A DNA stretch of 64,000 bases from the NCBI GenBank assembly GCA_963971305.1, contig OZ020307.1, forward strand, positions 16,505,501-16,569,500, in the 5' to 3' direction. Positions 2,757-59,908 of this stretch are shown in pieces; within the stretch, counting starts at the first letter, position 1; every line of letters starts with the position of its first letter. The notes below the pieces were generated by a model. It was not told the DNA's origin. It did no database searches and saw nothing but the letters and a program-made list of their open reading frames with translations. The translations under genes and the position numbers were made by a program. Source of the stretch: Arcuatula senhousia. Lineage: Eukaryota; Mollusca; Bivalvia; Mytilida; Mytilidae.

Positions 2757-3472
2757 CAAGATTGCTACACGTAGCCAATGTCCCCCGCCGCGGCATTAAA
2801 GTTGAAAATCAACTTAATTTAAAAAAAAATTAAATGCCTTTGCGATATGAATACCTACATATCATGACAAACAATCAAACAAAATCTGAGTTCACAAAGT
2901 GTTCCTAAAATGAACAAAGTCGATAAAGTCCCATAACTCCTATTAAATTTGTCAAATCAAAATGGTGGTGCAATATGATCAACTACAGATCATGGCAAAA
3001 AATCCTACAAAATTTAATCAAAATCCGTTGAGCAGTCTCAGAGGAGTTGCGCTCACAAAGTGTTACTATGACATAAAATGAACAAAGTCGATAAAGTCCC
3101 AAAACTCCTTTAAAATTTGTCAAATCAAAATGGCGGTACAATATGATCAACTACATAGCATTGCAAACAATCCTACAAAGTTTCATCAAATTCTGTTTAG
3201 CGGTCTCAGAGGAGTTGCGCTCACAAAGTGTTCCTATGACATAAAATGAACAAAGTCGATAAAGTCCCATAACAACTATAAAAGTTGTCGAATCAAAACG
3301 GCGGTACGATATGATCAACTAAATATCACGACAAACAATCCTACTAAGTTTCATCAAAATTTGTTGAGCGGTCCCAGAGGAGTTGCGCTCACAAAAGTGT
3401 GACGGACGCACGGACGGACGGACGGACGAAGACCATTACTAGGTCCCTCCGTCGCGTTGCGGCGGGGGACAA
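2757..3472 (-). mobile_element. Helentron-like non-autonomous element, 168-bp internal units
   Basis: Read on the minus strand, a 5' hairpin (GTCCCCCGCCGC pairing with GCGACGGAGGGAC) is followed by about three tandem units of 168 bp; 'gaggagttgcgctcacaaa' begins at 3041, 3209 and 3377. Then come the inverse of the 5' arm (GCGGCGGGGGACA) and a second short hairpin (GCTAC-GT-GTAGC), ending CTTG before T. Comparison with the uninterrupted copy A (1540 region) shows that the second hairpin and tail belong to the inserted DNA. A 'cggacgga' run lies beside the 5' hairpin. No coding capacity. Confidence 0.7.
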
Positions 3473-3930
3473 TTAAAATATACATGTATGCATTAAAAAT
3501 AATAAGACTGCTATAAGACAATTGGAAAAGATGCAGTGCTTAATTAATTTTTTATTTACCTTTTAAAAATATGTGAATTGATAGTCAATAAAATATATGA
3601 TTTGTGAGAAAATTATTTGTTTGTGTTGCTATTTTCAATACATCACTGCTACACATGCTACAGGAACCATCTTAAACACGTGAAGTCCACTGCTCCAAGC
3701 TGGATGACATCGATATTTTGAAGGCGAATTCTTCTTGGGAGTTTTCTTCTAATATAGTATAAGGCAACCTCCCACCGACACCTCTGGCAATATATTATAG
3801 CCTCTTGCCTATTTATGCAGTTTATGCAATGGGCTGTTTGTAATTATATTTAGCTTAAAATGCTGAAAACTCAAGTGACATGTGATATAAATAATGTTTT
3901 CTGAATCTTTTATAATAATACTCTATTTGC

Positions 3931-5129
3931 AAAACATATAAAAACCTAGCTTACTGGTTCAACAAATCCAAAACAATTACAAACAAATAGCATATAGTGA
4001 TTTATTACAAAGATAAATGCTTTTACATATGTGAAAAAAAGAAAACAAATGGTGATATGAAAATTACTTGAACAGTAAAGACCTCGTGTACATGGTGTAG
4101 TTTTATACATTCATGTTGATCTAACTTAAAACTCAATTGACCCACCATTATTTTGGCACCATGTATTTTACAGAGTGGAGTCTTGGAGTGGAGTTGTAGA
4201 GTGGAGTCTGGAAATAGTAGACCCACTTGTCACATTAATTTAGACTGCTAGCTGTTTTCCATTGTGGATTTTTATATTACCTATGATTTATGTAGGTTAT
4301 GTCAACTTATACCACATCTTATTATTGAGTATGCACAAACCCAATGTTTACTTTTAAAGGTCAAAACCTTTAAGTTATCATATGTAGACATTTTGCTAAA
4401 TGAAAACTTTTGTAGGACTTCTTGAGCAAGCAAGCAACAGCGTTTCGCTATCTACAACAATTTTCATTCTATAGACTAGAATATCTTCACGACGACATCA
4501 TGCCCCGTCTCATAAGGCGTTCGTATTTCTGCAATCAATGAACCATGAGGAGGATGCCAGGGTACAATTTCATGATGATTTTTGTTTGCTCATTTCATGA
4601 TGCAATGTGTATAAAGTTAGGTGACTTCAATGACTCAATGAAGACTTTGCACTTTGCAGAGCTTTTTAATCTCAACATTTAGGAATGCAACATGTTATCT
4701 CTATCTGCAATATTTGTTATTATTCAAGGCAAAAATCATAGCACAAATTTATATAGCCCCTAAACGAAGTCTTCCGAAAACTTTGAATTTTTACCCAAAG
4801 GAGACTTTGTAGAGCCTCATCATCATGAGTTGAACTTTAAGGCAATAGCTTTTCTCTTTCTGAAATAATAGAGTCCGTCCTATAAGACACAAAAATGCTA
4901 TTTTTACCCGCTATAATGAGCCTTAAACCCTTTATGGGGTCATCTGACAAACTTATAGAGACTTTCATATAGATTTTGATTGTGAAGGTCCTATACTATA
5001 AGATCAATCAGTTTGGTTTTATGTTAGTTTTTGATTTACCTTTAAGTCTTTAAATATGGTTTTACCATGCTTCCATGTTCGTTTCGGAATAAAAAATTCT
5101 AACAATCGTTTTGTTTTGCTTGCAAAAAC
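3931..5129. other. No gene recognised
   Basis: AT-rich sequence without a supported gene. A short, somewhat GC-richer patch at 4415-4560 could hide a small exon, but no convincing frame plus splice sites was found. Confidence 0.4.
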
Positions 5130-6010
5130 GATGACCCCCCGTTTCCTCCAAAAGTTCAAAGGTCCATAAATTCCACAAAAAATTGAGGATCAAAATGTCT
5201 AAACAAACAAAATATGGTGTCCTTCCAACATACCAAGTTTCGTTGCATTATTTTATTTTTAGTAGATTCTGAGGAGTTGCACTGACAAGGTGATAAGAGA
5301 GTACGGTTTTTGAGAAAAGCTTGACGGAAATATTCAAGTTGATTTTCATAGATTTTCTTATCAGCCTAGTCCCAAACAGGAAGTAGATGCCCGACAGACC
5401 CGAAAGTGGCTTAGGCAATACAGTTTGCCATACTGAACAATCCTACCAAGTTTCAAATCATTCTCATGTACGGTTTCTAAGAAAAGCTTGACAGAAATGT
5501 TCAAGATGATTTTCATATCGGCCTAGTCCCAAACAGGAAGTAGATGTCCGACAGACCTGAAACTCGCTTAGGACGTATAGTTTTGTCATACTGAACCATC
5601 CTACCAAGTTTAAAATCATTCCCATGTATGGGTTCTGAGAAAACCTTGACGGACGGATATGGGTAAAACTTAATCCCCCCCCCCGACATGTGGTCGCAGG
5701 GGCATAAAAATTGAAGATCAAGATTTTCTGGTCATATGCACAACTATATATAGTGTCCTTCCTATATACCAAGGTTCGTTGAATTCGGTTCTGTTGTTTC
5801 AGAGGAGTTGCACTGACAAGATGATACATGAGAATTTTCAGCTTATTTCTAAGTTCAAAGGGTGGAAACTCCCACAAAAATTTAAGAATAACATTTCCTG
5901 GTAACAAGCACAACTGCATATGGTGTCCTGCCTATATACCAAGTTTTGTTGAATTCTGTTCAGTAGTTTCAAATGAGTTGTCCTGATAAACTAAAGCGGG
6001 GGTAGACATA
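5130..6010 (-). mobile_element. Degenerate, inverted copy of the 171-bp-unit element
   Basis: On the minus strand this is a worn relative of the element at 56471-57445. 'gaggagttgcactgacaag' begins at 5271 and 5802, and phrases such as 'ggtgtccttcctatatacca' mirror the tandem units there. The expected 5' hairpin near 6000-6030 is only partly preserved ('gcgggggtagacata' without a clear partner arm). Old and probably immobile. Confidence 0.7.
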
Positions 6011-13127: not shown

Positions 13128-14302
13128 ACAAGTGTGGCCACTAAAAGTATGTCTCGCCTGCCGGCACCATCGCTAATATCAACTACCTAAGCTTTCATTT
13201 CTTGATATAAACACAAAAAGTGTCAGCCTATACCTAATAACAGATGCCTAGTTATTATACTATTCAAGCAATCCATTGTCCACACAAGTATTACAAAAAG
13301 TTTTCTGTCTGAAAAAAAGACCTAAGTTCACAGAGTCACTGGAGTGTAAAAATGGGGTCATGGTCACATGGCATGGTGACAGTTGCGTTGTCCATAACCG
13401 CAACTGTCTGTTTACCCAATATCAGATGCCTAGCTATTATAACTTTCCAGCAATTCATCGTCCATAAAGTCTTACAAAAAAGTTTTTCGGCCTGAAAAAG
13501 ACCTAAGTTCACAGATTCACTGGAGCGTGAAAATGAGGTCAGGGTCACACGGCATGGTGACAGTTGCATAGACCATAACCTGAACTGTCTGTATACTAAA
13601 TATCAGATGCCTAGCTATTATACTTTTCAAGCAATTCATCGTCCACAAAAGTCTTACAAAAAAGTTTACAGCCTGAAAAAAGACCTAAGTTCACAGAGTC
13701 ACTGGACCGTGAAAATGAGGTCACGGTCACACGGCATGGTGACAGTTGCGTAGACCATAACCTGAACTGTCTTTATACCAAATATCAGATGCCTAGCTAT
13801 TACACTTTTCAAGCAATTCATCGTCCACAAAAGTCTTACAAAAAAGTTTACAGCCTGAAAAAAGACCTAAGTTCACAGAGTCACTGGAGCATGAAAATGG
13901 GGTCAGGGTCAAACGGCATGGTGACAGTTGCATAGACCATAACCTGAACTATCTGTATACCAAATATCAGATGCCTAGCTATTATACTTTTCAAGCAATT
14001 CATCGTCCACAAAAGTCTTACAAAAAAGTTTATGGCCTGAAAAAAGACCTAAGTTCACAGAGTCACTGAAGCGTGAAAATGGGGTCAGGGTCAAACGGCA
14101 TGGTGACAGTTGCGTAGACCATAACCTGAACTATCTGTATACCAAATATCAGATGCCTAGCTATTATACTTTTCAAGCAATTCATTGTCCACAAAAGTCT
14201 TACAAAAAAGTTTACGACGCCGACGCCGTCGCCGCCGCCGCCGCCGCCGGAAAGTAATACCTATGTCTCGCCTTCCGCGACTATTCGTCGCAGGCGAGAC
14301 AA
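13128..14302 (-). mobile_element. Helentron-like non-autonomous element with ~5 x 182-bp tandem units
   Basis: On the minus strand it opens with a hairpin, GTCTCGCCTGCGACGA pairing with TCGCGGAAGGCGAGAC around 14264-14300. It continues through a GC-rich (CCGCCG)n tract at 14215-14250 and five units of 182 bp; 'ccataacc' recurs at about 13392, 13573, 13755, 13937 and 14119. It closes with the inverse of the 5' arm (GGCAGGCGAGACAT, 13148-13161) and a short palindrome (GTGGCCAC) at 13129-13136. It lies in intron 1 of the minus-strand gene. A worn relative is at 33610-34100. Confidence 0.75.
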
Positions 14303-14326
14303 TTATCTTGTCCCATTGATCTATCA

Positions 14327-17783: not shown

Positions 17784-18722
17784 ATAAATATATAAGAAGG
17801 TATTCCGAAGTGCACCAGTAATAGCGCCTATGGTGATTGTGTTTTTGCCTGACCGGTTTCGGTCCTTGAATTAAGGACCTTCTTCAGAGGCATGATACAA
17901 TAGTGGTTTGGTTCTGATGGGTATTTATAGTCGCGACTAGGGGAAAGCCCCTCTGCGTCGACTTTAATACCTAAACAGGTATAGACTCGCTATGTACCAT
18001 GGGTCGTCCAGCCCATGACACACCACCGCCAGTGTTAGCTGTTCCAGGTACATACGCACTGGAGACAGGGCCCGTCTTCCACCACGAGGAGGTACTGGTC
18101 GGAATTCTGGAAGACCAGTGGTTTGGTTTTACTACGCTCCCTTTTATACCATCTGACTGTCATCCGTTTTTAGCTGACCATGTGATTTGGTAAACGGAAC
18201 TTATTGGTAAAATTATCCGTTTGAAAGTGATCCGTTATTGGAGTATCCGTTTGATCCGTTTTAATACTCACGTGGCTTTAGAAACGGATAAATAGTGAAT
18301 ATAAAATCCGTTTTACTTTTAATGTGTTCAAGAATTCTCCGTTTTTATCCGTTGTATGATACCCATGTGATTATGGAGAAGGATAGTGAATGGATCTGTT
18401 ATCCGTTTTATAATCATTTGATCCAGAGAACGGATTGGAAATCGTGTGTTTACTGTTGTGTTGACCATGTGGCCATTGTACTACTGTTACGGCACACCAA
18501 AATCACGTAATAATATGTGGGCGAAATAAATGATCTATTAAGTTTAAAGTATCGTATGTCCCGCATGTGGAATACACTTTGGTATGTTGATACAGAGCAA
18601 GTCAGTTATTTGGTACTATTAAGTGAAGAAGGTCCTTAAAGGACCGAAACCGGTCAGGCAAAAACATAATAACCATATGCGCTTTTACTGGTGCACTTCG
18701 GAATACCTTCTTATATATTTAT
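17784..18722. mobile_element. 939-bp structure bounded by ~100-bp inverted repeats
   Basis: The left arm 17784-17886 and the right arm 18624-18722 are inverse copies with few mismatches. Both outer ends read 'ataaatatataagaaggta', and both contain 'gcctgaccggtttcggtcc' or its inverse. The interior holds a block (17925-18118) shared with the insertion at 2366-2559, and a cluster of ATCCGTT motifs (18166-18430). Inverted copies of a terminus, a ribozyme-like motif in the arm and a possible ORF start just outside the right arm are reminiscent of Penelope-like elements, but no Penelope reverse transcriptase was confirmed. Confidence 0.7.
17847..17891 (-). ncRNA. Hammerhead-ribozyme-like motif (type I, degenerate)
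   Basis: Read on the minus strand: GCCU, then CUGAAGA (fits CUGANGA), one extra A, stem II GGUCCUU-AAUUC-AAGGACC, then GAAA, then CCGGUC, then AGGC. GCCU and AGGC can pair as stem I, and ACC/GGU as a minimal stem III, which would place cleavage after the C at 17851. Penelope-like elements are known to carry such minimal hammerheads. The extra A between the core and stem II is not canonical and could abolish activity. The mirrored copy in the right arm (18624-18661) has GUGAAGA and no stem I. Confidence 0.4.
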
Positions 18723-20208: not shown

Positions 20209-20750
20209 ATAGCGAGCATCGCAGATGCGAGCCCTACGGCATTGTGCATGTTTTGAGATGTGCCAGAAATATACTGACGATAAAACCGGAACAGGTTTAC
20301 TTTTATGGAGTGAAAAAAATAATAGGCACGGAGCAAATCAACCATCTGGGTTTATAAAAAATACATCATAATTTGTTATGCAAAAATATAAAAATTAAAA
20401 TTCAAAAACAGTGATAAAACCCTCATTCATCCACTTGTTTATTTTTACACACAGATTTTTATTTAAACACCATTCGGTCTTTTCCGCTGAAAAACGATTT
20501 TCCGGAAATTACCGAGCTAGCTTTTGGCAACATCGTCCCACTGACTAGTCATACCAAATGCATGATACTGACCAAGCTTTGTTAAATTCTAAGCAAGAAA
20601 GATAAAGAAATACATAAATTTACTGAATAAAACCTACTCATAATAATAAATAAAAGGTTCTTACCTGAAAATGATAGAAGAGTCCCATTCTGTGGGGTTT
20701 CACTCACTTTCCTCAATCCTGCATGATATTTTAACTTTACCGTTTTTTAT
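20209..20750 (+). repeat. Tandem duplication copy 2 (A'-C', segment B deleted)
   Basis: A' (20209-20631, 423 bp, the same length as A) is followed directly by C' (20631-20750, 120 bp). Compared with copy 1, 471 bp (B) are missing. The deletion joint falls in a short microhomology, 'ataaa', present at both borders of B. This suggests replication slippage or end joining after, or during, the tandem duplication. Confidence 0.85.
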
Positions 20751-36959: not shown

Positions 36960-37308
36960 TTTGTGAATTATATACATGTCGACCAACCAACATGTCCGCC
37001 GTTGCTAAAAATAGAACAGGGGGGGGGGGGTCAAACCATTGTTTTTGGCTTATAACTAAAAAAGTATAAGATATAAAGAAAATCGGAAGCAAATTTTCTT
37101 GTTCAGCATCAAAAGGTCCTTACAGGAGTTATTGCCCTTTAACTGTTTTTTCTATTAATTTTAACTGATTTCCAAAAATCTTCTCTGAAACCACTGAAAG
37201 GATTGTTTTGCAACTTTGTATACTTGAAAGTTTGTGAAATTTATTCAAACTTTGGCATAAGAGATCAGGTGAGCGATTCAGGCTCCTTGGAGCCTCGATC
37301 TAGTTTTA
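36960..37308 (+). mobile_element. Split Helentron-like element, 3' part
   Basis: It continues the unit broken at 27695 and then ends with 'caggtgagcga', the inverse of the 5' arm at 26524-26533 (10-bp GCTCACCTGA core). A second hairpin AGGCTCC-TT-GGAGCCT (37279-37294) and the tail CGATCTAG before T (37296-37303) follow. A run of twelve G's occurs at 37019-37030. The CTAG|T end after a hairpin resembles Helitron 3' ends. Confidence 0.82.
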
Positions 37309-40900: not shown

Positions 40901-43900
40901 TTCTATTTCACAGGAAAATTCTTAAAAAGAGAAAGGCCTTTGAATACAAGTTACAGAGAAGAATCAAGAGCAAAGAAGATTTTTTACGCTATATTAAGGT
41001 ACGAGCATTATCAGCTAAACCAATGCTAAGGTCTTCCTCAACTTGTTTCAAGGTGGGAACATTTGCTCAATATTGAAGTTATTCTTGTAATGAAGACCAG
41101 CAATAAAAAAAAACTGTTACTTTATTTGTTTTGTATCAGAGTAGAAAATTTGCCGAAAAGGTAACCAGCCCTGAATTGAAATTCTACTTGTTTTTACTTT
41201 AAAGCCATTCAAATGTTCAAGAATTTTAGCCAGCCCTGATAAAAAGTTTCCAGTCTCAATCAGGCTATTATTTCCAACTCTGTGTATTATTTCATCTTTG
41301 TTATCTAATTTTATAAGAGTTTATCATAATGTTTAATTTAATTAAAAACATATTTTTGATCCATCTTTATAGAAGCTCAGTCACTCACTTGACATTTATT
41401 TTCCAAAGGATAGCCCCAAATAACTATAGAAAACAAAAACATTAAGTAGCCGTCTCTGTAAGAATCATGCAAAACGCAAAAATAGTGGCAGATGCATATT
41501 TTTGAAAACTGGTTCTTTTTATCGGAATTTGATCTTTATGATGAGAAATGAATGTAAATTAAATTTTAGCCCAATCGGTTCATTAGTTCTCGCTTAATAC
41601 ACAATACAAATTTGGTAACATTGTGTATGAAAATAAGTACGGGAAAAAGTCCCGCCATTTTTTTTTCTTAACAAACCAACCAAAAATATCACTTTAAGTA
41701 TCCGACTGATATTTTTGTTGAAATTCAACTAGAATGGCCTTCTTTTTCAGAAAATATCAACAATTTTTACAGACCCTTCCGAACTTTCGAGTAAAGAGGC
41801 CAAGAAAATTGGTTGGGTTGTGTATGAAAAAAGTTCGGGAAATTTTCCCGCCAAAATTTTTAATGTCAATTTGCAGATAGTCTAATGGACCAATTTCACT
41901 TAAGTTGATATTTTTCGCTAAAGTGGTCCAAGATGAATTACTAGCCAACAAAATTGTTAAAACCTAAGATAATAAGTAAATCACCTTTTGCATGATTTTT
42001 ACTGAGACAGGCTCTTAATTAACATTGAAATTTTATCTGAATGCATTGATTATTATATGCACAATGTAAAGGATAAAACATAGAAGATAATGAGATGTGG
42101 AATAAGTGTATACGACACAACATACAATACAAATGACAATTTAAAAAAATCCACAATGCACTTTTTATTTAACCCAACCATGCACAATTTTTATACGACC
42201 GCAAAATTTTTGCGATCGTATTATGTTATGGCGATGTCGTCGTTGTCGTTATCGTCGTTGTCGTTGTGGTCGTCGTCTGTAGACACTTTGGTTTCCGTGC
42301 GATAACTTTAGTTGTAGTAAACCAATTGTTATAAAATTTTGATATGATGTTTATAACCACTAAAGGAAGGTTGGTATTGCATTTGGGGTTTCTGGCCCCT
42401 ACCGTTTAAGAAAAAAGGGCCAAAAGGGGCAAAAATGGGTATATTGACAAAACATCTGTAGAATGTTTAATTTTCATCAGATTTTGATCATTCTTTTTCA
42501 TTGTATTCCTCAATAAATTCTATCAACAAAATGTAACAACAGTTTTGATGTATCTTGTACCGTTACATTGCTATAAGGGGTCAAAAAAGGGCCCCACCCA
42601 AAAAATTGACTTTTTTATTTGTGGTTTGATTTTCAAAATCTTTTTGTCATTGGAATCCTTGTAAAAATCCCTGCCTGCGTTTTTCAACCAGATTTGCAAT
42701 ATCTCATACCGTTTTCGAGAATTTAGGGGTCAAAGGGGCCAAAAACAACAATTATAAGTGTTTGTCTTGGCAAATGGTTTATTAAAAAAATTTTAATTGT
42801 AGTGGGCTGACGAATTGTTACATTGTTTTAAAATGACGTTTCTAACCACTAGAGAAAGTTTCCTCATGTGTTAGGGGATTTTGGCCCTTACCATTTCAAA
42901 GAAAAAGGGACCAAAAGGGGGAAACTGGGTGTTAAGACAAAACTCTGTAGAACATTATCTTTCATACAATTTGTCTTTTTTTTTCATTGTAATCCTCAAT
43001 AAACATGATAAATTCTGTCAGGAAAATGTTACGACAGTTTTTAAGTATCTTGTACTGTTACATTGCTATCAGGGGTCAAAAAGGGGCCACTCCCAAAAAA
43101 TCGACTTTTTTATTTGTGGTCCAATTTTGAAAATCTTTTTTTTTCATTGGAATCCTTGTTAAATCCATGCCATCATTTTCCATTCAGGTTAGCAATATCT
43201 CTTACCAATTTGGGGAGGGATCAAAGGGACCAAAAGCACATTATGAGTTTTCCTTGAAGGTTGGTATAGACTACATAAATGTGTAAACAAAATTCAAATA
43301 TGCAATTCAAAGTCCCCCAAAGAATGCATGTGTCAAAAAGCTTTGTGATTCCACCATGGGCTGCATGTGTCCAAAGTATTTGACAATCCATATTGGGCTG
43401 CAAATGTACAGGGTTCAACATGTTGCGGTCGTATTATGCTGCGCTCGGCGTAGCTTTTTATTAAGTCCCCGACCACGAAGTGTCGGAGGACTTATTGTTT
43501 TTGCCCAGTTTCTTATTATTATTATTATTATTATTAAGTCCCCCAAACAACGTTTGGGGACTTATTGTTTTTGCACCGTTTCTTATTATTATTATTCTTC
43601 TTCTTCCGATTCTTCCACTTAGTCGTGAACTTGTCCGGAGATCCCAGAGAAAACGACTCCACATATCGATATGAAACTTGGCAGGATAATAGATAGTAAA
43701 GAAAGGAAGCTTCGTTGACAATCGGACTTTTCAAAATGGCCACCGTTTCCATGGAAACAGGAAAATGGACTAAATATTGGACATTGCAATATCTCGGTAA
43801 CCTAGGTGCGCAGGGTTCTGAAATTTTGTAGGTTGATAGAGCAAAACATTCTCTTTCATAATATGAAAAAAAATTTTGAAGCGATATTTACGGTTTTCGA

Positions 43901-46900
43901 GATATAAATAAAAATGTGATTTCTCAAGGGAGATAATCGGGTCGAAATTTTCAAAGTGCTCCGATTTACATGAAAATTTATATTTAGGGGTTTTTTGACA
44001 TGCTGAAGAGAAAAGTGGCAAATACGGGTCGTTTGGGGGACTTTGTGACTTGCTTGCAATCACAGTTAATACTTGTTATTCTTCTTCTTCTTATTCTTCC
44101 ACTTAGTCGTGAACTTGTCCGGAGATCCCAGAGAAAACGACTCCACATATCAATATGAGACTTGGCAGGATAATAGATTGTAAAGAAAGGAAGCTTCGTT
44201 GACAATCGGAATTTTCAAAATGGCCGCCGTTTCCATGGAAACAGGAAAATGGACTAGATATTGGACATTGCAATATCTCGGTAACCTAGGTGCGCAGGGT
44301 TCTGAAATTTTGTAGGTTGATAGAGTAAAACATTCTCTTTAATAATATGAAAAAAAATTTTGAAGCGATATTTACGGTTTTCGAGATATAAATAAAAATG
44401 TGATTTCTCAAGGGAGATAATCGGGTCGAAATTTTCAAAGTGCTCCGATTTACATGAAAATTGATATTTAGGATTTTTTTGACATGCTGAAGAGAATAGT
44501 GGCAAATACGGGTCGTTTGGGGGACTTTGTGACTTGCTTGCAATCACAGTTAATACTTGTTATTAAGTCGCCCAAAACAAAGTTTGGGAGACTTATTGTT
44601 TTTGCACCGTTTCTTATTATTAAGTCGCCCAAAACATAGTTTTGGGGACTTATTGTTTTTGCACCGTTTCTTATTATTAAGTCGCCCAAAACAAAGTTTG
44701 GGAGACTTATTGTTTTTGCATCGTTTCTTATTATTATTATTATTATTATGTCCCCGAACACGAAGTGTCGGGGACATATTGTTTTTGCTCGGTTTCTTAT
44801 TATTATTATTATTATTATTAAGTCGCCCAAAACATAGTTTTGGGGACTTATTGTTTTTGCACCGTTTCTTATTATTATTATTATTATTATTCTTCTGATT
44901 CTTAATCGTAAAGCTGTCCTCCCTAATACAAGAAAACGGTTTAAGGAAATTGAATAACACTTGTTGGATTGGATAGTGGGTTACCTAAAGGCGTGCAATC
45001 AAGTTTTGAAATTTTCAAGATGGCCGCCGTTTCAAAATGGCGGCCATCGGAAAAAGTGGGCGGAAATTTTTTTTTCATCGGATCGTTTTGAAAATTGGTC
45101 ATCTGGGTAAAGCGGGTATGCTGAGTTCAAATCTGCGACCGGATTTGAAATCCGACTTACGGTTTTAAAATGGCGGCCATTTTACTACACCCGCCCCCCT
45201 TAAAAATGTGAACTTTGTCCGATTTCAATGAAATTTGATTTCTATACATATTTTATTGTACTGAATGGGAAGAAATAGTATCTAAGGCGATTTTGGGCGA
45301 CTTGTGTGTTGGCATCCCAACACAAATTATAGCTAGTTATTATTATTATTATTATTATTATTTTTCTCGGTATTCTGGATCGTGAACTTGTCCACCTCAT
45401 TTTTTCGACATCTTTTAAGGTAGGAAGCTGAAAATTCATAAATCAAGAGTATGGAATGGGAGATTGTGCTTTTTGTATTTTTCGCCGAAATCGAACGACC
45501 CCATATAGGTAAAAAAAGGGCCTCAAAATGGCTCCTCGAAACCGAAGTTGAATTTTTCCTGGCATTTCTGATCCGGCAGGGGTAGGAAAAATTCCCTTAT
45601 AGGTTAAGTGCGGATATACAATACCTTTCATTTAAAAAAAAGATTTTGAAAATCGGACTTACCGTTTTCAAAATTTTGCAAAAAATCGAAAATTATTTTT
45701 TTTGTAAGAATGAGTTATCTTTCTTTGTACCATATATTTTGTGATATTAATGAAAAAAATTCTCAACTTTGTTATTTCTTAATGAAAATTGGTTTACAAG
45801 GTAATAGTGGTATGCCGAGTTCAATTTTGGAATCGACATTTTTTTTTGGGCGGCCATTTTAAAAATGGCCGCCATTTCCCGCCGAAATTAAAATTATTCC
45901 GATTTTAGTGAAAATTGGTATATAAGGTAATTGTGGTATGGCGAGTTGATTTTTGACATCAAAATTTTTTTATCGTCGGCCATTTTCAAAATGGCCGCCG
46001 TTTCCCGCCAAAATTAAAGTTATTCTGATTTTGATGAAAATTGGTTTACAAGGTAATAGTGGTATGCCGATTTCAATTTTGGAATCGAAATTTTTTTTTG
46101 GGCCGCCATTTTCAAAATGGCCGCCATTTCCCGCCAAAATTAAAATTACTCCGATTTTAATGAAAATTGGTATATGAGGTAATAGTGGTATGGCAAGATG
46201 ATTTTTGACATCAAAATTTTTTTATTGTCGGCCATTTTCAAAATGGCCGCCGTTTCCCGCCAAAATTAAATTTACTCAGATTTTAACGAAAATTGGTATA
46301 TAAGGTAATATATGTATGGTGAGTTGATTTTTGACATCGAAATATTTTTATTGTCGGCCATTTCAAAAATGGCCGCCGTTTCCTGCCAAAATTGAACTTA
46401 CTCCTATTTTGATGAAAATTGGATAAATTAAGTTATCTCAAATGCCAACAGACATTGACAAAGAGGGGTACGTGAGGGGACATTTTTGTGACTCGCTTGC
46501 GATCACAATTAGAACTAGTTATTCTTCTGATTCTTAATCGTAAAGCTGTCCTCCCTAATACAAGAAAACGGTTCAAGGAAATTGAATAACACTTGTTGGA
46601 TTGGATAGTGGGTCACCTAAAGGCGTGCAATCAAGTTTTGAAATTTTCAAGATGGCCGCCGTTTCAAAATGGCGGCCATCGGAAAAAGTGGGCGGAAATT
46701 TTTTTTTCATCGGATCGTTTTGAAAATTGGTCATATGGGTAAAGCGGGTATGCTGAATTCAAATCTGCGACCGGATTTGAAATCTGACTTACGGTTTCAA
46801 AATGGCGGCCATTTTACTACACCCGCCCCCCTTAAAAATGTGAACTTTGTCCGATTTCAATGAAATTTGATTTCCATACATATTTTATTGTACTGAATGG

Positions 46901-49900
46901 GAAGAAATAGTATCCAAGGCGATTTTGGGCGACTTGTGTGTTGGCATCCCAACACAAATTATAGCTAGTTATTATGTCCCCGACCACGAAGTGTCGTCAG
47001 GGACATATTGTTTTTACTCCGTTTCTTATTTTTCTTATTATTATTATACTTTTTTCTTTTTCTTCCGTCAACCTGATGCACGAACTTGTCCGGCTATCTC
47101 CTCGGAAACGGTTTGACCGATCGATATGAAACTTGGAGGGGTGATAGGTCCCAAGGTCCTACGGTGTTTTTTGCGGTTTATAATTTCAAAATGGCCGCCA
47201 TTTCCAAGATGTCCGCCAAAAACCGAAAAACTATTACCTTATTTTTCTTGGAAACCACATGATGAAATTCAACGAAACTTGGTATACATGTTCAGAAACA
47301 TAATTGGAAACTTTTAGGGCAAAAAAAAATTTCGCGAGTGGCGGCCATTTTGAAAAATGGCCGAAAAACGCCAAAAAGTGTAAACATTGTCCAATTTCAA
47401 CGAAACTTAGTATACAGGGTATATGGGTGATGGCGACTAACGGCGCATTGTCGGAATTTCCATATTGGTTACCATTTTCAAGATGGCCGCCGAAAATGGC
47501 GAAAAATGTTAACATTGTCCGATTTCAATGAAACTTGGTATACAGGGTATATCAGTGATGGCTACCCACGGCACATTGTTGGAATTTCCGTATTGGTCAA
47601 CGTTTTCAAGATGGCCGCCGAAAATGGCGAAAAATGTTTGCATTGTCCGATTTCAACGAAACTTGGTATACTGGGTATATGGGTTATGGCGACTCACGGC
47701 GCATTGTCGGATTTTCCGTATTGGTCGCCATTTTCAAGATGGTCGCCGAAAATGGCAAAAAATGTAAACATTGTCCGATTTCAACGAAACTTGGTATACA
47801 GGGTATATGGGTTATGGCGACTCACGGCGCATTGTCCGATTTTCCGTATTGGTCGCCATTTTCAAGATGGTTGCCCAAAATGGCGAAAAATGTAAACACT
47901 GTCCGATTTCAACGAAACTTGGTATACAGGGTATGTGGGTGATGGCGACTCACAGTGCATTGTCGGAATTCTGTTGAAGAGGACATACATTATATGAGAA
48001 CGGGAGGGGACATCCCACGTTTCGGGAAACGTAAATTTTAATTATTATTATTATTCTTCTGATTCTTAATCATGAAGCTGTCCTCCCTAATACAAGAAAA
48101 CGGTTCAAGGAAATTGAATAACACTTGTTGGATTGGATAGTGGGTTACCTAAAGGTGTGCAATCAAGTTTTGAAATTTTCAAGATGGCCGCCGTTTCAAA
48201 ATGGCGGCCGTCGGAAAAAGTGGGCGGAAAATTTTTTTTCATCGGATCGTCTTGAAAATTGGTCATCTGGGTAAAGCGGGTATGCTGAGCTCAAATCTGC
48301 GACCGGATTTGGAATCTGACTTACGGTTTCAAAATGGCGGCCATTTTACTACACCCGCCCCCCTAAAAACGTCAACTTTGTCCGATTTCAACGAAATTTG
48401 ATTTCTAGACTTATTTTGATGCACTGATTCGAATGGAACTCTATCCAAGGCGATTTTGGGCGACTTGTGTGTTGGCATCCCAACACAATTATACCTAGTT
48501 ATTATTATTATTATTCTTCTGATTCTTTATCGTAAAGTTGTCCTCCCTAATTCAAGAAAATGGTTCAAGGAAATTGAATAACACTTGTTGGATTGGATAG
48601 TGGGTCACTCAAAGGCGTGTAATCAAGTTTTGAAATTTTCAAGATGGCCGCCGTTTCAAAATGGCGGCCGTCGGAAAAAGTGGGCGGAAATTTTTTTTTC
48701 ATCGGATCCTCTTGAAAATTGGTCATCTGGGTAAAGCGGGTATGCTGAATTCAAATCTGCGACCGGATTTGAAATCCGACTTCCGGTTTCAAAATGGCGG
48801 CCATTTTACTACACCCGCCCCCCTAAAAACGTCAACTTTGTCCGATTTCAACGAAATTTGATTTCTAGACTTATTTTGATGCACTGATTTGAATGGAACT
48901 CTATCCAAGGCGATTTTGGGCGACTTGTGTGTTGGCATCCCAACACAATTATACCTAGTTATTCTTATTTCAATTTCCTATTTATAGATCTAAAGTTTGT
49001 CCGACATATCTCGTAAAAACGCTTTGGCGAATCAAGATGAAACCTTTTTAGATGGTTAGGGGGTCACTCATAGATGGGCCATCGACTTTTAAAATTTTCA
49101 AGATGGCCGCCATTTCAAAATGGCCGCCTGCGGAAAAAAGGGGCGGAAAATTTTTTTTCGTCTGATCGTCTTGAAAATGGGTTATCTGGGTAAAGTGGGT
49201 ATGCTGATTATCATGGTGCGACCGGATTTTTTCTACGATCTGCCAATTTTTGGCAATTAGCCGCCGAAATCGCCAAAAACTTGACTTTGTCAAATATCCA
49301 TGAAAATTGTTATACTAGATAAAATGATTATGCTGATCACCATTGGGCAAGCACGGTTCTTCAATAAGTAACCAATTTTTGGCAATCCGCCAAAAAAATT
49401 GGCAATCTGCCAAAAGTCGCCAAAAATTTAAAGTTGTCCAAATTACATAAAAATTTGTATACAATGTAAATTTGATATGCTGATCATCATGAGGCAAGTA
49501 AAATGTTTCTATGATTAGCCATGTTTTGGTATTTTGCAATCCGCCAAAATTTGGGGACGGGAGGGGACTTTTATGTGACTTGCTTGCAATCACAATTATA
49601 GCTAGTTAAATTTGATTTTCCTTTTTGTTGCATTAGAAAAATATCTTAAAATATCAACACCTATAAAATTTTGATAATAGTGCCTTTCAAATAATTCATG
49701 AATAGCCCTGATATTAGTACATATCTTTTGATTGTATTTTCAGTATGAAATGAGTGTCCTTCAGCTGATCAAGACAAGGAGACAGGTGATTTTACAGAAT
49801 TTCAGAGTTGATGAAATATTTTGTGGATATAATATTACCATTTCAATTTAGCATTTTACAAGTGATGGTCTCAACTTGGGGTTTCTAGACAATTTTTTCT

Positions 49901-55900: not shown

Positions 55901-58091
55901 ATTTGCTGACAAAAGTTTAAAAGAAAAAAAAATACTTGTAGTTAAATCTATTTGAAATTATAAAAGAAAAAGTTAATAGAAAAAAGAACCTTATTATTTA
56001 AAAGATTTTTATGGTCAGATCTAGTTGTTAGATGAATTAAAAGGGAGTTATTGTGTGTAGTTAACCCTTCACTTTTTACCAGCTAAACCTGAACTTAATT
56101 GAAAAATTACATTTTCCAAAATAACAAGATTTTTATAATATTAAAGTTAGGTCAGCTGTTACAAATGTAATTGTCATTTAAACAACAAAAACATGAAAAA
56201 TAGGGAAAATTATTAATGGGATGATGTTATATAAACAATAATTTCATGTCTTTTCATATCATGTTGTAAATGATAGATGTTGTAAATTAGATACTATTCT
56301 ATGTTTTATGTGTAAGTTGATTGTATTTGTTAAACTATCAATTATGTTCTTTCTCTCATTGTTGTAATCTCTTATTGCTCCTCGTGGGCTCCCGATCTGG
56401 AATAAAATGATGTTTATGTTTATGTTATGTTTATCATTCAAAATATTTTAATCATTTGCTGCATGATTATTATGTCTCCCCCCACTTTTGTGGGGAGACA
56501 TATTGTTTTTGTCGTGTCCGTCCGTCCGTCCGTCCGTCCGTCTGTCCGTCACAAAGTTTGTCAGCGCAACTCCTCTGAAACTACTGAACCAAATTCAACG
56601 AAACTTGGTATATAGGAAGGACACCATATGTAGTTGTGCATATTACCTGGAAATTTTGATCCTCAACTTTTTGTGGGAGTTATGGCCCTTTGAACTTAGA
56701 AAATTGCTGAAAATCCTCATTTATCATCTTGTCAGCGCAACTCCTCTGAAACTACTGAACCGAATTCAATGAAACTTGGTATATAGAAAGGACACCATAT
56801 GTAGTTGTGCATGTTACCAGGAAATTTTGATCCTCAAATTTTTGTAGGAGTTATGGCCCTTTGAACTTAGAAAATTGCTGAAAATCCTCATTTATCATCT
56901 TGTCAGCGCAACTCCTCTGAAACTACTGAACCAAATTCAACGAAACTTGGTATATAGGAAGGACACCATATGTAGTTGTGCATGTAACCAGGAAATTTTG
57001 ATCCTCAAATTTTTGTAGGAGTTATGGCCCTTTGAACTTAGAAAATTGCTGAAAATCCTCATTTATCATCTTGTCAGCGCAACTCCTCTGAAACTACTGA
57101 ACCAAATTCAACGAAACTTGGTATATAGGAAGGACACCATATGTAGTTGTGCATATTACCAGGAAATTTTGATCCTCAAATTTTTGTAGGAGTTATGGCC
57201 CTTTGAACTTAGAAAATTGCTGAAAATCCTCATTTATCATCTTGTCAGCGCAACTCCTCTGAAACTACTGAACCGAATTCAACGAAACTTGGTATATAGG
57301 AAGAACATCATATGTAGTTGTGCATATTACCAGGAAATTTTGATTCTCAAATGTTTGTGGGAGTTATGGTCCTTTGAACTTAGAACTTTTTGGGGAAACG
57401 GGGGGAGACATCGTTTTTGTAGGCAAAAACAAACTTTAATTTATTTTTTGAATAGGTGCTTTCCGCCACTGACCTCATTTTCAATATCGGAAATCCCCTT
57501 GTCAAAACATATAACTGCTGCATAAAGAATAATGAAATTGCATCCCTTATAAACATTTTATGCAAATTTTTGTCACCATTTCAAGTAAAACATGATTTTA
57601 TCCTTCCATATATACGGAATGAAGATCTTATTACATATGGCTAGGTCCGGAAGAGATGGGTTATCCAATTATGAATTATCTCTATAAACCTCCATCTCAC
57701 CATTAGACCTAGTTTTTTCTTTTTTATTAATAAGCTATTTATAAAATTCTATTACTGTTAAGACAATTCTGATTGTTTTTGTCGTTTCCATAGTTTTTTC
57801 TGGGTATTTTTTCCGCTTTTTCACTGTTTTAATTCAAGTGTATTAAAGTTTTCATAATGCCAACAAGTATTATAGTTCTATTGAAAGACTTGCTTACAAT
57901 AAGACTTTGTTTTACAACTGTTTTCCCTTACATGTATGGAGCTTTAAATTACCAAAGTAATACATGTATATATGTGTCTTGTACACTTAACCCACTTCTC
58001 ATTATCTTTATGTATATATATATTCATTATTGTTTGTGTATTTCAGTTAAGACTTAGACGTACAGCTCTTGGTATTGAAGCCATGCCTGAG
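37814..58091 (+). CDS. UTP6: U3 small nucleolar RNA-associated protein 6 homologue, exons 1-9 (partial)
   Basis: UTP6 is a component of the U3 snoRNP / small-subunit processome, which cleaves pre-rRNA to 18S rRNA in the nucleolus. Nine exons splice in frame into 207 residues: 37814-37905, 40914-40998, 49744-49785, 50812-50883, 51990-52058, 52659-52722, 53979-54097, 54508-54540 and 58047-58091. The N-terminus (MAEYVQQNLEEMLPELEQIE, then RIGICSSEE) and FEYKLQRRIKSKEDFLRYIK match the conserved UTP6 N-terminal domain. DDVKLWMSYIEFA and LWIAAAKWEW are HAT-type helices with the aromatic pattern of RNA-processing HAT proteins, and YFRMELMYAEK is a family hallmark. The family is about 600 residues long, so roughly two thirds lies beyond 64000. 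All junctions are GT/AG with matching phases. Confidence 0.93.
38098..39285 (+). pseudogene. LINE C-terminal fragment in UTP6 intron 1
   Basis: Pieces of one coding region in shifted frames: STYMYAAVIGEVGRYPIIFN, VNTLNYWIRLEES, KLRTYRLFKSKFGYEPYLD and ICRFRVGSHRLEIERGRH, then after a shift EVEDEIHFLLTCKKLDKVRK. 'GE(L/V)GRYP...YW.RL' and 'KLRTY..FK..FG.E.YL...FR.S.H.LEIE.GR', followed by a C/H-type tail, mark the C-terminus of a non-LTR retroelement abundant in molluscs and cnidarians. The 3' end is 'attgacaataaaacatttg' with a short TTGTATCC-type tail. Dead (frameshifts). Confidence 0.85.
39448..39600. mobile_element. 153-bp hAT-like MITE
   Basis: It starts CAGACCTGTCAAGT and ends with the inverse of CAGGCCTGTCAAGT (13 of 14 matched). 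It is flanked by TTTTAT on both sides (39442-39447 and 39601-39606), read as a target-site duplication, possibly part of an 8-bp one. CAG-type ends suggest hAT. The interior contains 'ctcacgca' motifs near both ends. No coding capacity. Confidence 0.75.
39607..40913. other. Rest of UTP6 intron 1, nothing recognised
   Basis: AT-rich intron ending in the pyrimidine-rich acceptor 'ttctatttcacag' at 40913. Several TACATGTA octamers occur here. Confidence 0.5.
40914..40998 (+). CDS. UTP6: UTP6 exon 2
   Basis: Eighty-five bases encode the split Arg, then KILKKRKAFEYKLQRR and IKSKEDFLRYIK, ending at AAG|GTACGA in phase 0. This is the most conserved block of the UTP6 N-terminal domain seen here. Confidence 0.93.
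40999..42188. other. UTP6 intron 2, first part, no element recognised
   Basis: AT-rich intronic DNA. A local duplication-like feel is given by 'gggaaaa...cccgccatttt' and 'gggaaattttcccgcc' at 41640 and 41838, but no element can be delimited. Confidence 0.4.
42189..43463 (+). mobile_element. Helentron-like element, TACGACCGC family, copy 1
   Basis: The 5' hairpin TACGACCGCAAAA...TTTTGCGATCGTA (42193-42220) is followed by (TCGTCG)-rich sequence and then units with 'ggggtcaaa(a)aggggcca' and 'tttttatttgtgg'. The 3' end has TTGCGGTCGTA (the inverse of the 5' arm), a second hairpin GCTGCGC-TCG-GCGTAGC and the tail TTTTTATTAAG. A sister copy in the same orientation is at 58290-59908. No coding capacity. 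Confidence 0.8.
43464..44077 (+). mobile_element. Helentron-like array, module 1 with two hairpin heads
   Basis: Two heads precede the body: AAGTCCCC...GGACTT at 43464 and AAGTCCCCCAAAC...GTTTGGGGACTT at about 43533. Each is followed by 'attgtttttgc' and (ATT)n. The body (from about 43600) ends 'gggggactttgtgac', i.e. the inverse of the head arm, then a 9-bp stem hairpin (TGTGA, bulged C, TTGC, loop TT, GCAA, TCACA) and the tail ATACTTG before TTATT. Confidence 0.75.
44078..44564 (+). mobile_element. Helentron-like array, module 1 second copy
   Basis: A direct repeat of the previous body at an offset of 484 bp ('acttagtcgtgaac' at 43617 and 44101), with only scattered substitutions and without the hairpin head. 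It has the same 3' hairpin and CTTG tail. Minus-strand frames over both copies are repeat artefacts, not genes. Confidence 0.8.
44565..44890 (+). repeat. Ladder of five 57-bp hairpin heads spaced by (ATT)n
   Basis: Heads start at 44565, 44622, 44679, 44748 and 44820. The spacings are 57, 57, 69 and 72 bp, i.e. 57 plus a multiple of 3 set by the ATT count. Each head is a palindrome (AAGTCGCCC...ACTT, or ATGTCCCCG...CGGGGACAT) followed by 'attgtttttgc' and a 'gtttcttattatt' spacer. Only the last head is followed by an element body. Confidence 0.85.
44891..45336 (+). mobile_element. Helentron-like array, module 2 copy 1 (446 bp)
   Basis: It starts TCTTCTGATTCTTAATCG and ends with 'ttttgggcgactt', the inverse of the AAGTCGCCCAAAA head at 44820. 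A perfect 8-bp hairpin TGTGTTGG-CATC-CCAACACA, then AAATTATAG and CTAG before T (45333-45336) follow. The interior contains 'aaaatggcggccat' palindromes. Four copies of this module are in the window. Confidence 0.85.
45337..46518 (+). mobile_element. Helentron-like array, module 3
   Basis: After (ATT)n it carries about five units of 130 bp with 'cggccattttcaaaatggcc' -type palindromes and 'gaaaattggtatataagg'. It ends 'ggggacat', then the 3' hairpin with stem TGTGA-C-TCGC / GCGA-TCACA, then the tail AGAACTAG (CTAG at 46515-46518) before TTATT. It has no head of its own directly upstream. Confidence 0.75.
46523..46968 (+). mobile_element. Helentron-like array, module 2 copy 2 (446 bp)
   Basis: The same length and ends as the copy at 44891-45336, with few substitutions, including CTAG at 46965-46968. 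It starts 5 bp after the CTAG of module 3 and is joined by 'ttat' alone, with no hairpin head. Confidence 0.85.
46969..48050 (+). mobile_element. Helentron-like array, module 4 with ATGTCCCC head
   Basis: The head ATGTCCCCGACC...GTCAGGGACAT at 46974 is followed by 'attgtttttac'. About five units of about 125 bp with 'cattgtccgatttcaa(c/t)gaaa' and 'cttggtatac(a/t)gggta' come next. The 3' part is 'gggaggggacat', the inverse of the head arm, then the hairpin ACGTTTC-GG-GAAACGT and the tail AAATTTTAATT. Overlapping plus-strand frames here are only translations of the repeat. Confidence 0.78.
48055..48498 (+). mobile_element. Helentron-like array, module 2 copy 3 (444 bp)
   Basis: Starts TCTTCTGATTCTTAATCA and ends with the TGTGTTGG/CCAACACA hairpin, ATTATAC and CTAG at 48495-48498. 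Followed by TTATT(ATT)n and then another copy of the same module. Confidence 0.85.
48515..48958 (+). mobile_element. Helentron-like array, module 2 copy 4 (444 bp)
   Basis: Shares diagnostic differences with copy 3 (e.g. 'cacaattatacctag', 'cgtcaactttgtcc') and so is its closest relative, probably through local duplication. CTAG at 48955-48958. Confidence 0.85.
48963..49605 (+). mobile_element. Helentron-like array, module 5 (array end)
   Basis: A distinct body with 'caatccgccaaa' and 'aagatggccgccatttcaaa'. It ends 'gggaggggactt', then the TGTGA-C-TTGC/GCAA-TCACA hairpin, then ATTATAG and CTAG at 49602-49605 followed by TTAAA. Ordinary intron sequence resumes after it. Confidence 0.75.
49744..49785 (+). 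CDS. UTP6: UTP6 exon 3 (14 codons)
   Basis: A micro-exon of 42 bp between 'attttcag' and CAG|GTGATT, coding YEMSVLQLIKTRRQ in phase 0-0. It follows directly from the exon 2 peptide in the family alignment. Confidence 0.9.
50812..50883 (+). CDS. UTP6: UTP6 exon 4
   Basis: 72 bp, acceptor 'atttctttcag', donor AAG|GTAAAG. Codes KIGYKKKTKEIDIAIVQRI then YKLFK, phase 0-0, corresponding to the family's 'I..S...R....F..A' helix. Confidence 0.92.
51990..52058 (+). CDS. UTP6: UTP6 exon 5 (first HAT-like motif)
   Basis: 69 bp, acceptor 'attttgcag', donor AGA|GTAAGT. Codes LATNRFQDDVKLWMSYIEFA then QSR. W, Y and F spacing fits a HAT repeat. Confidence 0.93.
52659..52722 (+). CDS. UTP6: UTP6 exon 6
   Basis: 64 bp, acceptor 'tatttcaacag', donor CAG|GTAAGA. 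The right frame gives KENSIASKTFTKMLQIHNKK then A plus a split codon. The longer Met-initiated frame over the same bases (KRIPLPVKHLL...) is a shadow. Confidence 0.92.
53979..54097 (+). CDS. UTP6: UTP6 exon 7 (second HAT-like motif)
   Basis: 119 bp, acceptor 'gttttaatag', donor GAG|GTATGA. Completes Asp, then LWIAAAKWEWTTNNSPDNAR and HLLQQGLRYLKDNQQLWQE. The W..A..E / AR.L...GLR pattern is a complete HAT helix pair. Confidence 0.94.
54508..54540 (+). CDS. UTP6: UTP6 exon 8 (33-bp micro-exon)
   Basis: Eleven codons, YFRMELMYAEK, between 'tttttattgtag' and AAG|GTGAGG. The peptide matches the family's YFRMEL.xAEK hallmark almost exactly, so the tiny size is real. Confidence 0.93.
54985..55250 (+). 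repeat. Dispersed ~250-bp repeat, copy 1 (in UTP6 intron 8)
   Basis: Shares 'aactcttccggacctggc', 'ttctgtatatatgga', 'aagggatg' and a closing 'aaatccccttttctaaaaat' with the copy at 55535-55790, diverged. Confidence 0.7.
55535..55790 (+). repeat. Dispersed ~250-bp repeat, copy 2
   Basis: Begins 'ctaggtctaatggtgagat' and ends near 'aaatcaccttttct'. It forms a long-range inverted pair with the copy at 57455-57717. Confidence 0.75.
56471..57445 (+). mobile_element. Helentron-like element with five 171-bp units (in UTP6 intron 8)
   Basis: The 5' hairpin ATGTCTCCCCCCAC-TTTT-GTGGGGAGACAT (56471-56500) is followed by 'attgtttttgtc', a (CCGT)n tract and five near-identical 171-bp units; 'gtcagcgcaactcctctga' begins at 56560, 56731, 56902, 57073 and 57244. 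The 3' end has GGGGGGAGACAT (inverse of the 5' arm), a second hairpin GTTTTTG-TAGG-CAAAAAC and the tail AAACTTTAATT. Unit identity is high, so homogenisation or amplification is recent. Confidence 0.85.
57455..57717 (-). repeat. Dispersed ~250-bp repeat, copy 3 (inverted)
   Basis: Inverse of the copy at 55535-55790: 'ggctaggtccggaagagatg', then 'ctctataaacctccatctca' and 'ccattagacctag'. Copies 2 and 3 could pair in the UTP6 pre-mRNA. Confidence 0.75.
58047..58091 (+). CDS. UTP6: UTP6 exon 9 (last exon seen)
   Basis: 45 bp, acceptor 'ttgtgtatttcag', donor GAG|GTTGGT (weaker). Codes LRLRRTALGIEAMPE, following the AEK of exon 8. No further UTP6 exon was found before 64000, so the gene most likely continues outside the window, across the elements below. 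Confidence 0.85.
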
Positions 58092-58289
58092 GTTGGTAAC
58101 TACAGAGAGATATAGGGATGTATTGATGTTAACAAAACCATATTATTGTTCCTCTTTTCAGAAAAGGACTTAAGTCACGAACCCTCATATTTGGCCTTAA
58201 TTAGGGCCATTTTTTCAAATTTATTTGTTAGATAAGATTTTTGTGGCCTAGTAGTCTAGAATAATTACTTGTTACCAAACAAAATCAAT

Positions 58290-59908
58290 TTTTATACGAC
58301 CGCAAAAAATTTGCGGACGTATTATGGTATGATGCTGTCGTCGTCGTTGTCGTCGGTGTCTGTTAACTTTTTAGTGTTTCCACAATAACTTTAGTTCCAG
58401 TTATCCAATTGCTATGAAACTTGACAATGATGTTCCTTACCATAAAAGGATGAATGGGATTGATTTTGGGGGTCCCCCCATTTTTCGTTTAGAAATTAGG
58501 GGCCAAAAATACTGCTTTTTTGTTTGTTTCCACAATAACTTTAGTTCTAGTTATCCGATTGCTATGAAATTTGACAGTGATGTTCTTTACCATACAAGGA
58601 TGAATGGGATTGATTTTGGGGGTCCCCTCCTTTTTTGTTTCGAAATTAGGGGCCCAAAAGGGGCAAAAAATTCAAATATTTTACTTGTTTCCACCATAAC
58701 GTTGGTCCTAGTTGGCCTATTGATGTGAAATTTGTCAAGAATGTTTCTTACAATAAAAGAATGAACCTGAATTTTTTCGCCCCCTTTTTTTCTGTGTAAT
58801 TAGGGGCCAAAAGGGGCCAAAATAAAAACTTTTTTATTTGTGGTCCGATTTTGAAATTTTTTTTGCATGTTTGTTTTTGTCAAATAGCGGAAACAAAATT
58901 AAGAATTAATTTTTGCAACCCCCCCTTTTTCCCCTATTACGTAATTAGGGGCCAAATGGGGCCAAAATCAAAACTTTTTTATTTGTGGTCCGATTTTGAA
59001 ATTTTTTTTTGCAAGTTTATTCTTGTCAGGTAGCTAATCCCAATTTGAGAATTAATTTTTGCGACCATCCCTTTTTTCACTTGTTTTGTAATTAGGGGCA
59101 AAAAGGGGCCGTAATCAAAACTTTTTTATTTGTGGTTTGTTTTTGAACATTTATTTTGCAAGTTTATTTTTGTCAAGTAGCGAATCCAAATTTGAGAATT
59201 TATTTTGGTGACCCCCACCCGTTTTTCACCTTTTATGTAATAAGGGGCCAAAAGGGGCCAAAATCGAAACTTTTTTAATTCTTGTCCAATTTTGACAATT
59301 TTTTTTGCAAGTTTATTCTTGTCAAGTAGCAGATATATTTCTGTGTCCCCTTTTTTTACTGTTACGTTATTAGGGACCAAAAGGGGCCAAAATTGTAACT
59401 TTTTTATTTCTGGTCTGATTTTGAAATTTTTTTTTACATGTTTGTTCTTGTCAAATAGCAGATACAAAATTAAGAATTAATTTTTGTGACCCCCCGTTTT
59501 TTCCCCTGTTACGTAATTAGGGGCCAAATGGGGCCAAAATCGAAACTTTTCTTATTTGTGGTCCGATTTCAAAAAAAAAAATTAGCAAATTTATTCTTGA
59601 CAGGTAGCAATTTTAAATTTAAGAATAACATTTTTGGGGCTGTAATCATAATTTTAAAAAAATTCTGGTTTGATTTTTAATTTTTTCCCCAAACATTATT
59701 CTTTTAAAGAATAGAATGCAACATTCAAAATTTATATTTTTACCCCCTGGGTTGAAAGTCCATCAGAGAAGCATGTGACAAAAACCTTTGTCAATCCACC
59801 ATGGGCTGCATGTGACCAGAGCATTAGACTATCCATATTAGGCCTAAAACATACAGGGTTCAACATGTTGCGGTCGTATCATGCTGCGCTCGGCGAAGCT
59901 TTTTATTA
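58290..59908 (+). mobile_element. Helentron-like element, TACGACCGC family, copy 2
   Basis: The 5' hairpin TACGACCGCAAA...TTTGCGGACGTA (58293-58321), many 'aggggccaaaaggggcc' units of about 110-125 bp, then TTGCGGTCGTAT, a hairpin with one mismatch (GCTGCGC / GCGAAGC) and TTTTTATTAAG. It is longer than the copy at 42189 because it carries more units. Confidence 0.8.

Follow-up and report, generated by a model that had tools for sequence, protein, structure and literature searches.

The window analysed here is a 64-kb stretch of contig C5 (16505501-16569500), and genome-wide searches were made in the 1.036-Gb assembly. The window contains six repeat groups (E1-E6) with a common layout: a T-run, a 5' hairpin with a left arm (L) and a right arm (R), a microsatellite or tandem units, an inverted copy of the left arm (the 3' arm, S) near the 3' end and some 20-45 bp inside it, and then a second hairpin, often with CTTG or CTAG before the T at the 3' end. 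The order of parts in E2-E6 is the same as in E1, and E5 comprises four arm types within one group. The features are listed in window coordinates under the reading argued below, as putative HINEs, non-coding derivatives of Helentron rolling-circle transposons.

2757-3470, minus strand: E1 HINE, with a CTTG end
3443-3470, minus strand: E1 5' hairpin GTCCCCCGCCGC/GACGGAGGGAC, followed by a GTCC microsatellite
2906-3400, minus strand: 168-bp units of E1
2780-2791, minus strand: 3' arm of E1
about 2764-2775, minus strand: 3' hairpin of E1
13129-14300, minus strand: E2 HINE, with a CTTG end
14265-14300, minus strand: E2 5' hairpin GTCTCGCCTGC
13229-14215, minus strand: 182-bp units of E2
13151-13161, minus strand: 3' arm of E2
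26523-27695, plus strand: 5' half of the E3 HINE, with hairpin AGCTCACCTGACCTGAAGGGTCGTGTGAGCT (26523-26553), a GTCC-type microsatellite and 488-bp units
36960-37303, plus strand: 3' half of the E3 HINE, with the arm (37265-37274), hairpin AGGCTCCTTGGAGCCT (37280-37295) and a CTAG end
42194-43454, plus strand: E4 HINE, copy 1, with head TACGACCGC, 3' arm GCGGTCGTA, hairpin GCTGCGCTCGGCGTAGC and a T-rich tail
58295-59899, plus strand: E4 HINE, copy 2
43463, 43536, 44565, 44622, 44679, 44748, 44820 and 46974, plus strand: the eight heads of the E5 nest
44043, 44527, 45303, 46483, 46935, 48013, 48466, 48926 and 49570, plus strand: the nine tail arm ends of the E5 nest
44748-46518, plus strand: E5 composite, a ATGTCCCC element enclosing a AAGTCGCCC element (44820-45336)
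56472-57430, plus strand: E6 HINE, with head ATGTCTCCCCCC, a GTCC microsatellite, 3' arm GGGGGGAGACAT and hairpin GTTTTTG-CAAAAAC; the 3' end is approximate
56558-57385, plus strand: 171-bp units of E6

The first-pass annotation had claimed one shared architecture at these sites, and the features that it described are present at all of them, although several details change. Since E1 and E2 are minus-strand elements, positions 2757 and 13128 are their 3' ends. The sites 26521 and 36960 do carry E3 features, but they are the two halves of a single copy split by about 9.26 kb and not two elements. Likewise, the head and tail types reported for 43464-49605 are there, but the site is a nest with eight heads, nine tails and four arm types. 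The families had been called unrelated; their arm sequences indeed differ, but E5 and E6 both carry ATTGTTTTT after the hairpin. E6 is present in the window as one copy and one decayed copy. Neither an Rfam search (gathering threshold) nor a tRNA search gave a match in the window.

A genome search with E1 gave at least 57 matches (40 scored among 3365 first-look candidates). Twenty further copies were fetched, and both ends are kept in 19 of the 21 copies that include the one in the window; the ends of these 19 were compared and agree. Their consensus head is a T-run followed by GTCCCCCGCCGC AAC GCGACGGAGGGAC, the GTCC microsatellite and the 168-bp units, and the consensus tail is GCGGCGGGGGAC ATT GGCTACGTGTAGC AATCTTG before the terminal T; individual copies depart from these patterns by scattered substitutions. 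Exact genome-wide matches numbered 6797 for the E3 head, 2098 for the E5 tail and 398 for the E5 head (C1/L012 form), and the reversed-pattern control gave 0 in each case. The E3 head and tail subtypes match each other in the complete copies L009, L018 and L027 and in the window copy; in copy L026 the agreement ends at GCTCACCTG. The copy numbers are stronger evidence than a strict scan of the window for three exact 8-mer arms and a 3' hairpin, which returned 18 groups on the plus and 11 on the minus strand, vs none in each of 10 dinucleotide shuffles (one strand scanned). Seven of these 29 groups fall at E5 or E6 heads, one of them pairing a head with the right arm of another head; the other 22 were rejected as elements (10 minisatellite, 12 internal palindromes). 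Because most heads are interrupted hairpins, the strict scan is too rigid and misses families. A mismatch-tolerant scan gave 316 raw matches, some of them internal palindromes or satellite-like, and added E7, E8 and E8b from other loci; a further family, E9, came from the compared Helentron regions described below.

To look for empty sites, the two flanks of each of 33 elements were joined and aligned to the window and to the 20 fetched E1 loci. Clear empty sites were found for the E1 copy of L016, which lies within an E4 body (at least seven paralogous sites, two of them in the window), for E2 in L009 and for E3 in L027. Weaker ones were found for E4 copy 2 at window position 58295 (78%, a possible paralogue in L017) and for E1 at window position 2757 (73.5%, window 1493-1603). 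Among the matches listed, several of the 33 elements had no empty-site match, and E5, E6, E7 and E8 had no clear one. In addition, two near-identical Helentron regions (98.8-99.9%) differ by one E9 and one E4 insertion, both in T runs and without any duplicated target sequence apart from T. The same mode of insertion is thus observed in five families (E1, E2, E3, E4 and E9). The first-pass annotation had proposed this comparison as a check, and the ends of these five families fall at the hairpins that it described; target duplications of the TIR type, which it had named as contrary evidence, were absent from the alignments inspected.

A search of the assembly for Rep with the PF14214 profile (150 scored of 345 candidates) gave at least 150 matches, all over the cut-off, of which 148 of 150 had no internal stop, with open frames of up to 3181 aa. 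The 100 listed places of E5 heads merge to 75 sites, and four of these lie within 25 kb of a Rep, vs 0.31 expected (30 Reps, C1-C4). Head and Rep have a fitting orientation at two of the four, on C1 and C3, and the C1 locus was fetched. Two Helentrons are described here:

C1, about 67767361-67781213, minus strand: 13.9-kb E5-type Helentron, with head AAGTCGCCCAAAACAAAGTTTTGGCGACTT and tail TTTTGGGCGACTTCTGTGTTGGCATCCCAACACAATTATACCTAG
C13, with a near-identical copy on C6: a second Helentron of the same design with other arms, AGGTCTTTCCC/AGGGAAAGACCT

In the C1 element, the E5 left arm and 3' arm enclose a 2208-aa open frame that contains the Rep. The 2146 aa scanned match OTU, DUF6570, Helitron_like_N (116.5 bits), PIF1 (80.1) and Exo_endo_phos (34.1), so that Rep, helicase and endonuclease stand in one frame, as expected of a Helentron. 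The seven best protein matches of the Rep part comprise one at 67% identity, five from the bivalves Saccostrea and Mytilus at 57-61% and one from a fish at 41%; together with the likeness of the repeats to oyster HINEs, this makes a bivalve host likely. The last 67-73 bp of the element share 90-97% identity with the four AAGTCGCCC-type tails of the window, the base just after the arm being a different one in the C1 tail. In parts of the element's first 1.1 kb, the identity to E5 of the window is about 70-90%. The AAGTCGCCC heads of the window have the left arm of C1, but their right arm differs by 1-2 nt and one head differs also by 1 nt in the loop. As judged from sequence, the AAGTCGCCC type of E5 thus shares its L and S arms with a putatively autonomous element that encodes Rep, helicase and endonuclease.

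In the second Helentron the gene is antisense to the element, as in one Helentron of D. ananassae with a minus-oriented gene (accessible part of PMC4067079). It has four to five stacked heads (AAGGTCTTTCCC...), tails made of AGGGAAAGACCT and an 8-bp hairpin, and a length of about 19 kb from the innermost head to the first tail, E4 insertion included; OTU and DUF6570 domains were recognised in the N-terminal 1386 aa encoded by the C6 copy. An autonomous rolling-circle element with matching ends, to which the first-pass annotation had looked, is therefore at hand for the AAGTCGCCC type of E5, but no partner with E1-E4 or E6 ends was found at the four Rep loci fetched (C1, C6, C7 and C13) of the 150 listed. 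The region between two C7 Rep loci (L036) contained a copy of E6 and an open frame for a reverse transcriptase, and no Helentron ends could be recognised in it. Rep and helicase signature motifs gave no match in the window and the 20 fetched loci.

Taken together, we hold with a probability of about 0.93 that E1-E6 are HINEs. The elements have a 5' subTIR with an internal complement and a 3' subTIR tens of bp from the 3' end. A palindrome or hairpin near the 3' end folds in all 17 element types, weakly in E1 (-1.6 kcal/mol) and E2 (-2.1 kcal/mol). A T-rich or TT target without TSD is seen for E1, E2, E3, E4 and E9 only, and ends common with an autonomous Helentron for the AAGTCGCCC type of E5 only. 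The Helentron/HINE reading of the first-pass annotation is accordingly supported by the empty sites, by the T runs and by the Rep-helicase-endonuclease element with E5 arms. One end design would then recur across several families because all of them are non-coding Helentron passengers.

This layout has already been published for mites, flies and oysters, and therefore it is no new design; what is new is the members. According to the accessible part of the oyster study (PMC7492417), the HINE layout occurs in 11 elements, and the Cg_HINE of Crassostrea gigas resemble ours in a 5' subTIR of 11-12 bp with a complementary IR of 7-12 bp after 1-12 bp, a GTCY/GTCC microsatellite in several, satellite-like tandem units, a 3' subTIR, a palindrome and T-rich insertion without TSD. 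In contrast to Cg_HINE as described there, the L and S arms of one E5 type recur here in a Helentron, the heads are mostly interrupted hairpins and E5 occurs in nested stacks. The same part of that study recategorises the bivalve Pearl elements as non-autonomous Helentrons; these are also repeats with central repeats, a likeness at the level of their description. HINE-Mo/Helentron-Mo and DINE-1 share palindromic subTIRs, a 3' palindrome 8-35 bp from the end, a T-rich or TT target and a Rep/helicase/endonuclease partner with the elements described here, and differ from them in sequence and host; the accessible part of that work makes no mention of a head interruption (PMC4067079).

The 43.5-49.6 kb region can be read as a set of eight elements, nested or adjoining, whose arms match in every non-crossing pair, and stacks of this kind would be built by insertion into (TTA)n just inside an E5 head. 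The inner heads indeed lie in a TTATT tract just inside the preceding head, or directly after a tail. The non-crossing pairing attains the maximal arm-match score of 89, as do 82 of 20000 permutations of the tails. Three pairings are tied, which differ in the headless unit: either of two 97%-identical body-and-tail units, or the outermost tail. Slippage or unequal exchange between TTATT tracts, or rolling-circle read-through, instead of nested insertion, might also have produced the stacked heads and tails at 43463-49605. We consider this somewhat unlikely, although the body-and-tail unit at 43592-44564 is a 97% tandem duplicate with no head of its own, many E5 tails among the listed places are about 450-460 bp apart and several head pairs 54-60 bp, and the multi-head array, with four and five heads, is common to two Helentron copies. 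Against it, elements of different arm type are closed in the correct order (ATGTCCCC inside AAGTCGCCC), and the ATGTCCCC-around-AAGTCGCCC nesting recurs on C1, where it encloses the autonomous Helentron and other sequence lies outside. Exact E5 heads and tails at the listed places are stacked with a spacing like that of the nest, thus stacking is common, and slippage probably contributes to it. Under nested insertion, the stacks would supply natural head-tail pairings.

That the left arm recurs inverted near the 3' end, as the first-pass annotation had stated, holds in each of the 17 element types from the window and the fetched loci, with an exact L:S run of 8-13 bp. The exact L:R run is 5-14 bp, and the L:S run exceeds it in 16 of the 17 types, the exception being E8b; the L:S duplex is more stable than the L:R duplex in 12 types and not in the other five. 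We infer that the match between the arms serves as a recognition rule, in which L and S are most likely family-specific contact sites at both ends. It seems quite improbable that only the 5' and 3' hairpins matter and that the L:S match is an unmaintained leftover of a common ancestral arm: some matches are just 8 bp long (the ATGTCCCC and AAGTCCCCG types) and, in the accessible part of PMC5876387, Helraiser without its RTS still moves, less efficiently, but an exact match of at least 8 bp is kept in all 17 types, across families with different arm sequences, and also in two autonomous Helentrons. An ordinary terminal inverted repeat of TIR DNA transposons or foldback elements is hardly credible, since the arms, which do form inverted repeats at the two ends or close to them, are placed asymmetrically (the 5' arm is terminal, while the 3' arm lies some 20-45 bp from its end and is followed by another hairpin), the empty sites inspected show no target duplication beyond T, and the enzyme linked to E5 is a Rep-helicase-endonuclease and not a DDE transposase.

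The 5' hairpin itself has a further feature. Under DNA folding parameters, a bulge or mismatch interrupts the stem after 5-11 pairs in 20 of 21 head types, and only E8b is perfect; these head types are not independent, as they include seven E5 variants, three of E3 and three of the C13/C6 Helentron. The bulged A of E1 is retained in 17 of 19 copies. For E5, the perfect stem has no match in the genome vs 398 for the bulged one, among copies that share descent and are not independent. For E3, 614 sites, or 8.3%, have a perfect stem vs 6797 with a C.T mismatch, and the interruption is therefore usual and not obligatory there, which weakens the idea of an obligatory interruption. The helices that flank the E3 mismatch differ on either side of it among three subtypes (TGACC, TGGACC and TTGCC) while the mismatch stays; this three-way covariation is seen in few complete copies, fitted by L009, L018, L027 and the window copy and not by L026. 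Among the literature matches listed, judged by title and opening of the abstract (subscription papers and Repbase being outside the scope), we found no description of interrupted Helentron hairpins; a search of the same kind and scope gave no link between HINEs and an autonomous Helentron in bivalves.

By analogy with Helraiser (PMC5876387) and Helentron work, from which we infer Rep nicking, strand displacement and a hairpin as terminator, the 5' hairpin (subTIR and internal complement) and, at the other end, the 3' subTIR together with the second hairpin would be the sequences read by the Helentron Rep. The element would be copied as a strand that begins at its 5' end and stops at the 3' hairpin terminator, and the copied strand would be joined between T and T of the target with no target duplication. 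A known HUH enzyme, TnpA-REP, offers a parallel. One group of REP hairpins must have a mid-stem bulge for this enzyme, another group being perfect (accessible part of PMC8266576), and the conserved mid-stem bulge resembles the heads described here, an analogy only, drawn from a bacterial system. A more specific proposal, which is tentative and in our view unlikely, is a two-part end code in each Helentron family, in which the interrupted 5' hairpin would be recognised by Rep and the 3' arm would displace the right arm and so couple the ends of the displaced strand. If it were true, the 5' hairpin would be imperfect by design, with an interruption 5-11 pairs from its base that is read as TnpA-REP does, and the 3' arm would be a better complement of the left arm than the right arm is.

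To conclude, the oyster study named no mover for its HINEs, and its authors, in the accessible part of PMC7492417, could relate no autonomous Helentron to them. For one HINE type, the present analysis supplies such a link, to an open-frame element in the same genome, and the pair is therefore testable. Of all the results, this link between one E5 type and a helper is the most useful. The interrupted hairpin is a lead, which may give a cheap and concrete handle on how Helentron Rep proteins select their ends.

The E3 copy in the window (E1-E6 are the repeat groups read as HINEs, non-autonomous Helentrons) is split between CCAAG and TTTGTG by about 9.26 kb (window 27696-36959), and no obvious target duplication was found at this interruption. 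The interrupting segment contains minisatellites and a decayed E2 copy, which are set out here with the remaining mobile-element traces and repeats.

Window 2366-2558 and 17912-18115: dispersed repeat of ~190 bp, inverted pair
Window ~5087-6003, minus strand: decayed E6-like copy, with unit stretches and a tail match
Window 19197-19619 and 20209-20631: 423-bp direct repeats, two identical (0 mismatches), 1012 bp apart
Window 29121-30875: two adjoining minisatellites, 39-bp and 41-bp units, strong GC skew
Window 33610 to ~34072, plus strand: decayed E2-like copy, head GTCTCACCTGCGACG...
Window 61962-63126, minus strand: broken transposase with a DDE_Tnp_1_7 domain, in two overlapping frames
L036 (fetched locus on contig C7) 4401-7316, minus strand: frame of 972 aa encoding RVT_1, a reverse transcriptase domain, flanked by two loci of the Helentron replication protein Rep

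The second minisatellite has an additional longer period of 387 bp. In comparisons within the window, stretches of the E2-like copy and the units at 13.3-14.2 kb showed 77-90% complementarity. For the E6-like copy this value was 84-89%, over stretches paired with the units at 56558-57355, and its tail matched at 82%. Three stretches of the inverted pair share 93-98% likeness. The transposase is of piggyBac type. The 423-bp repeats may be LTRs belonging to a miniature retroelement of very young age, or else the product of a recent duplication.

Among E3 heads (5' hairpin ends) in the whole assembly, 614 sites form perfect palindromes, which is 8.3% of the perfect and mismatched sites combined; they may stem from repair by template switching or from an active subtype of their own.

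Two Helentron regions on the separate contigs C6 and C13 (fetched loci L029-L035 and L037) are 98.8-99.9% identical across ~10 kb. They have in common an E4 insertion and an array of multiple heads, with 4 in one and 5 in the other, whereas the sequence beyond the outermost head differs between them. This arrangement suggests that a nested composite may have been transferred as a single unit.
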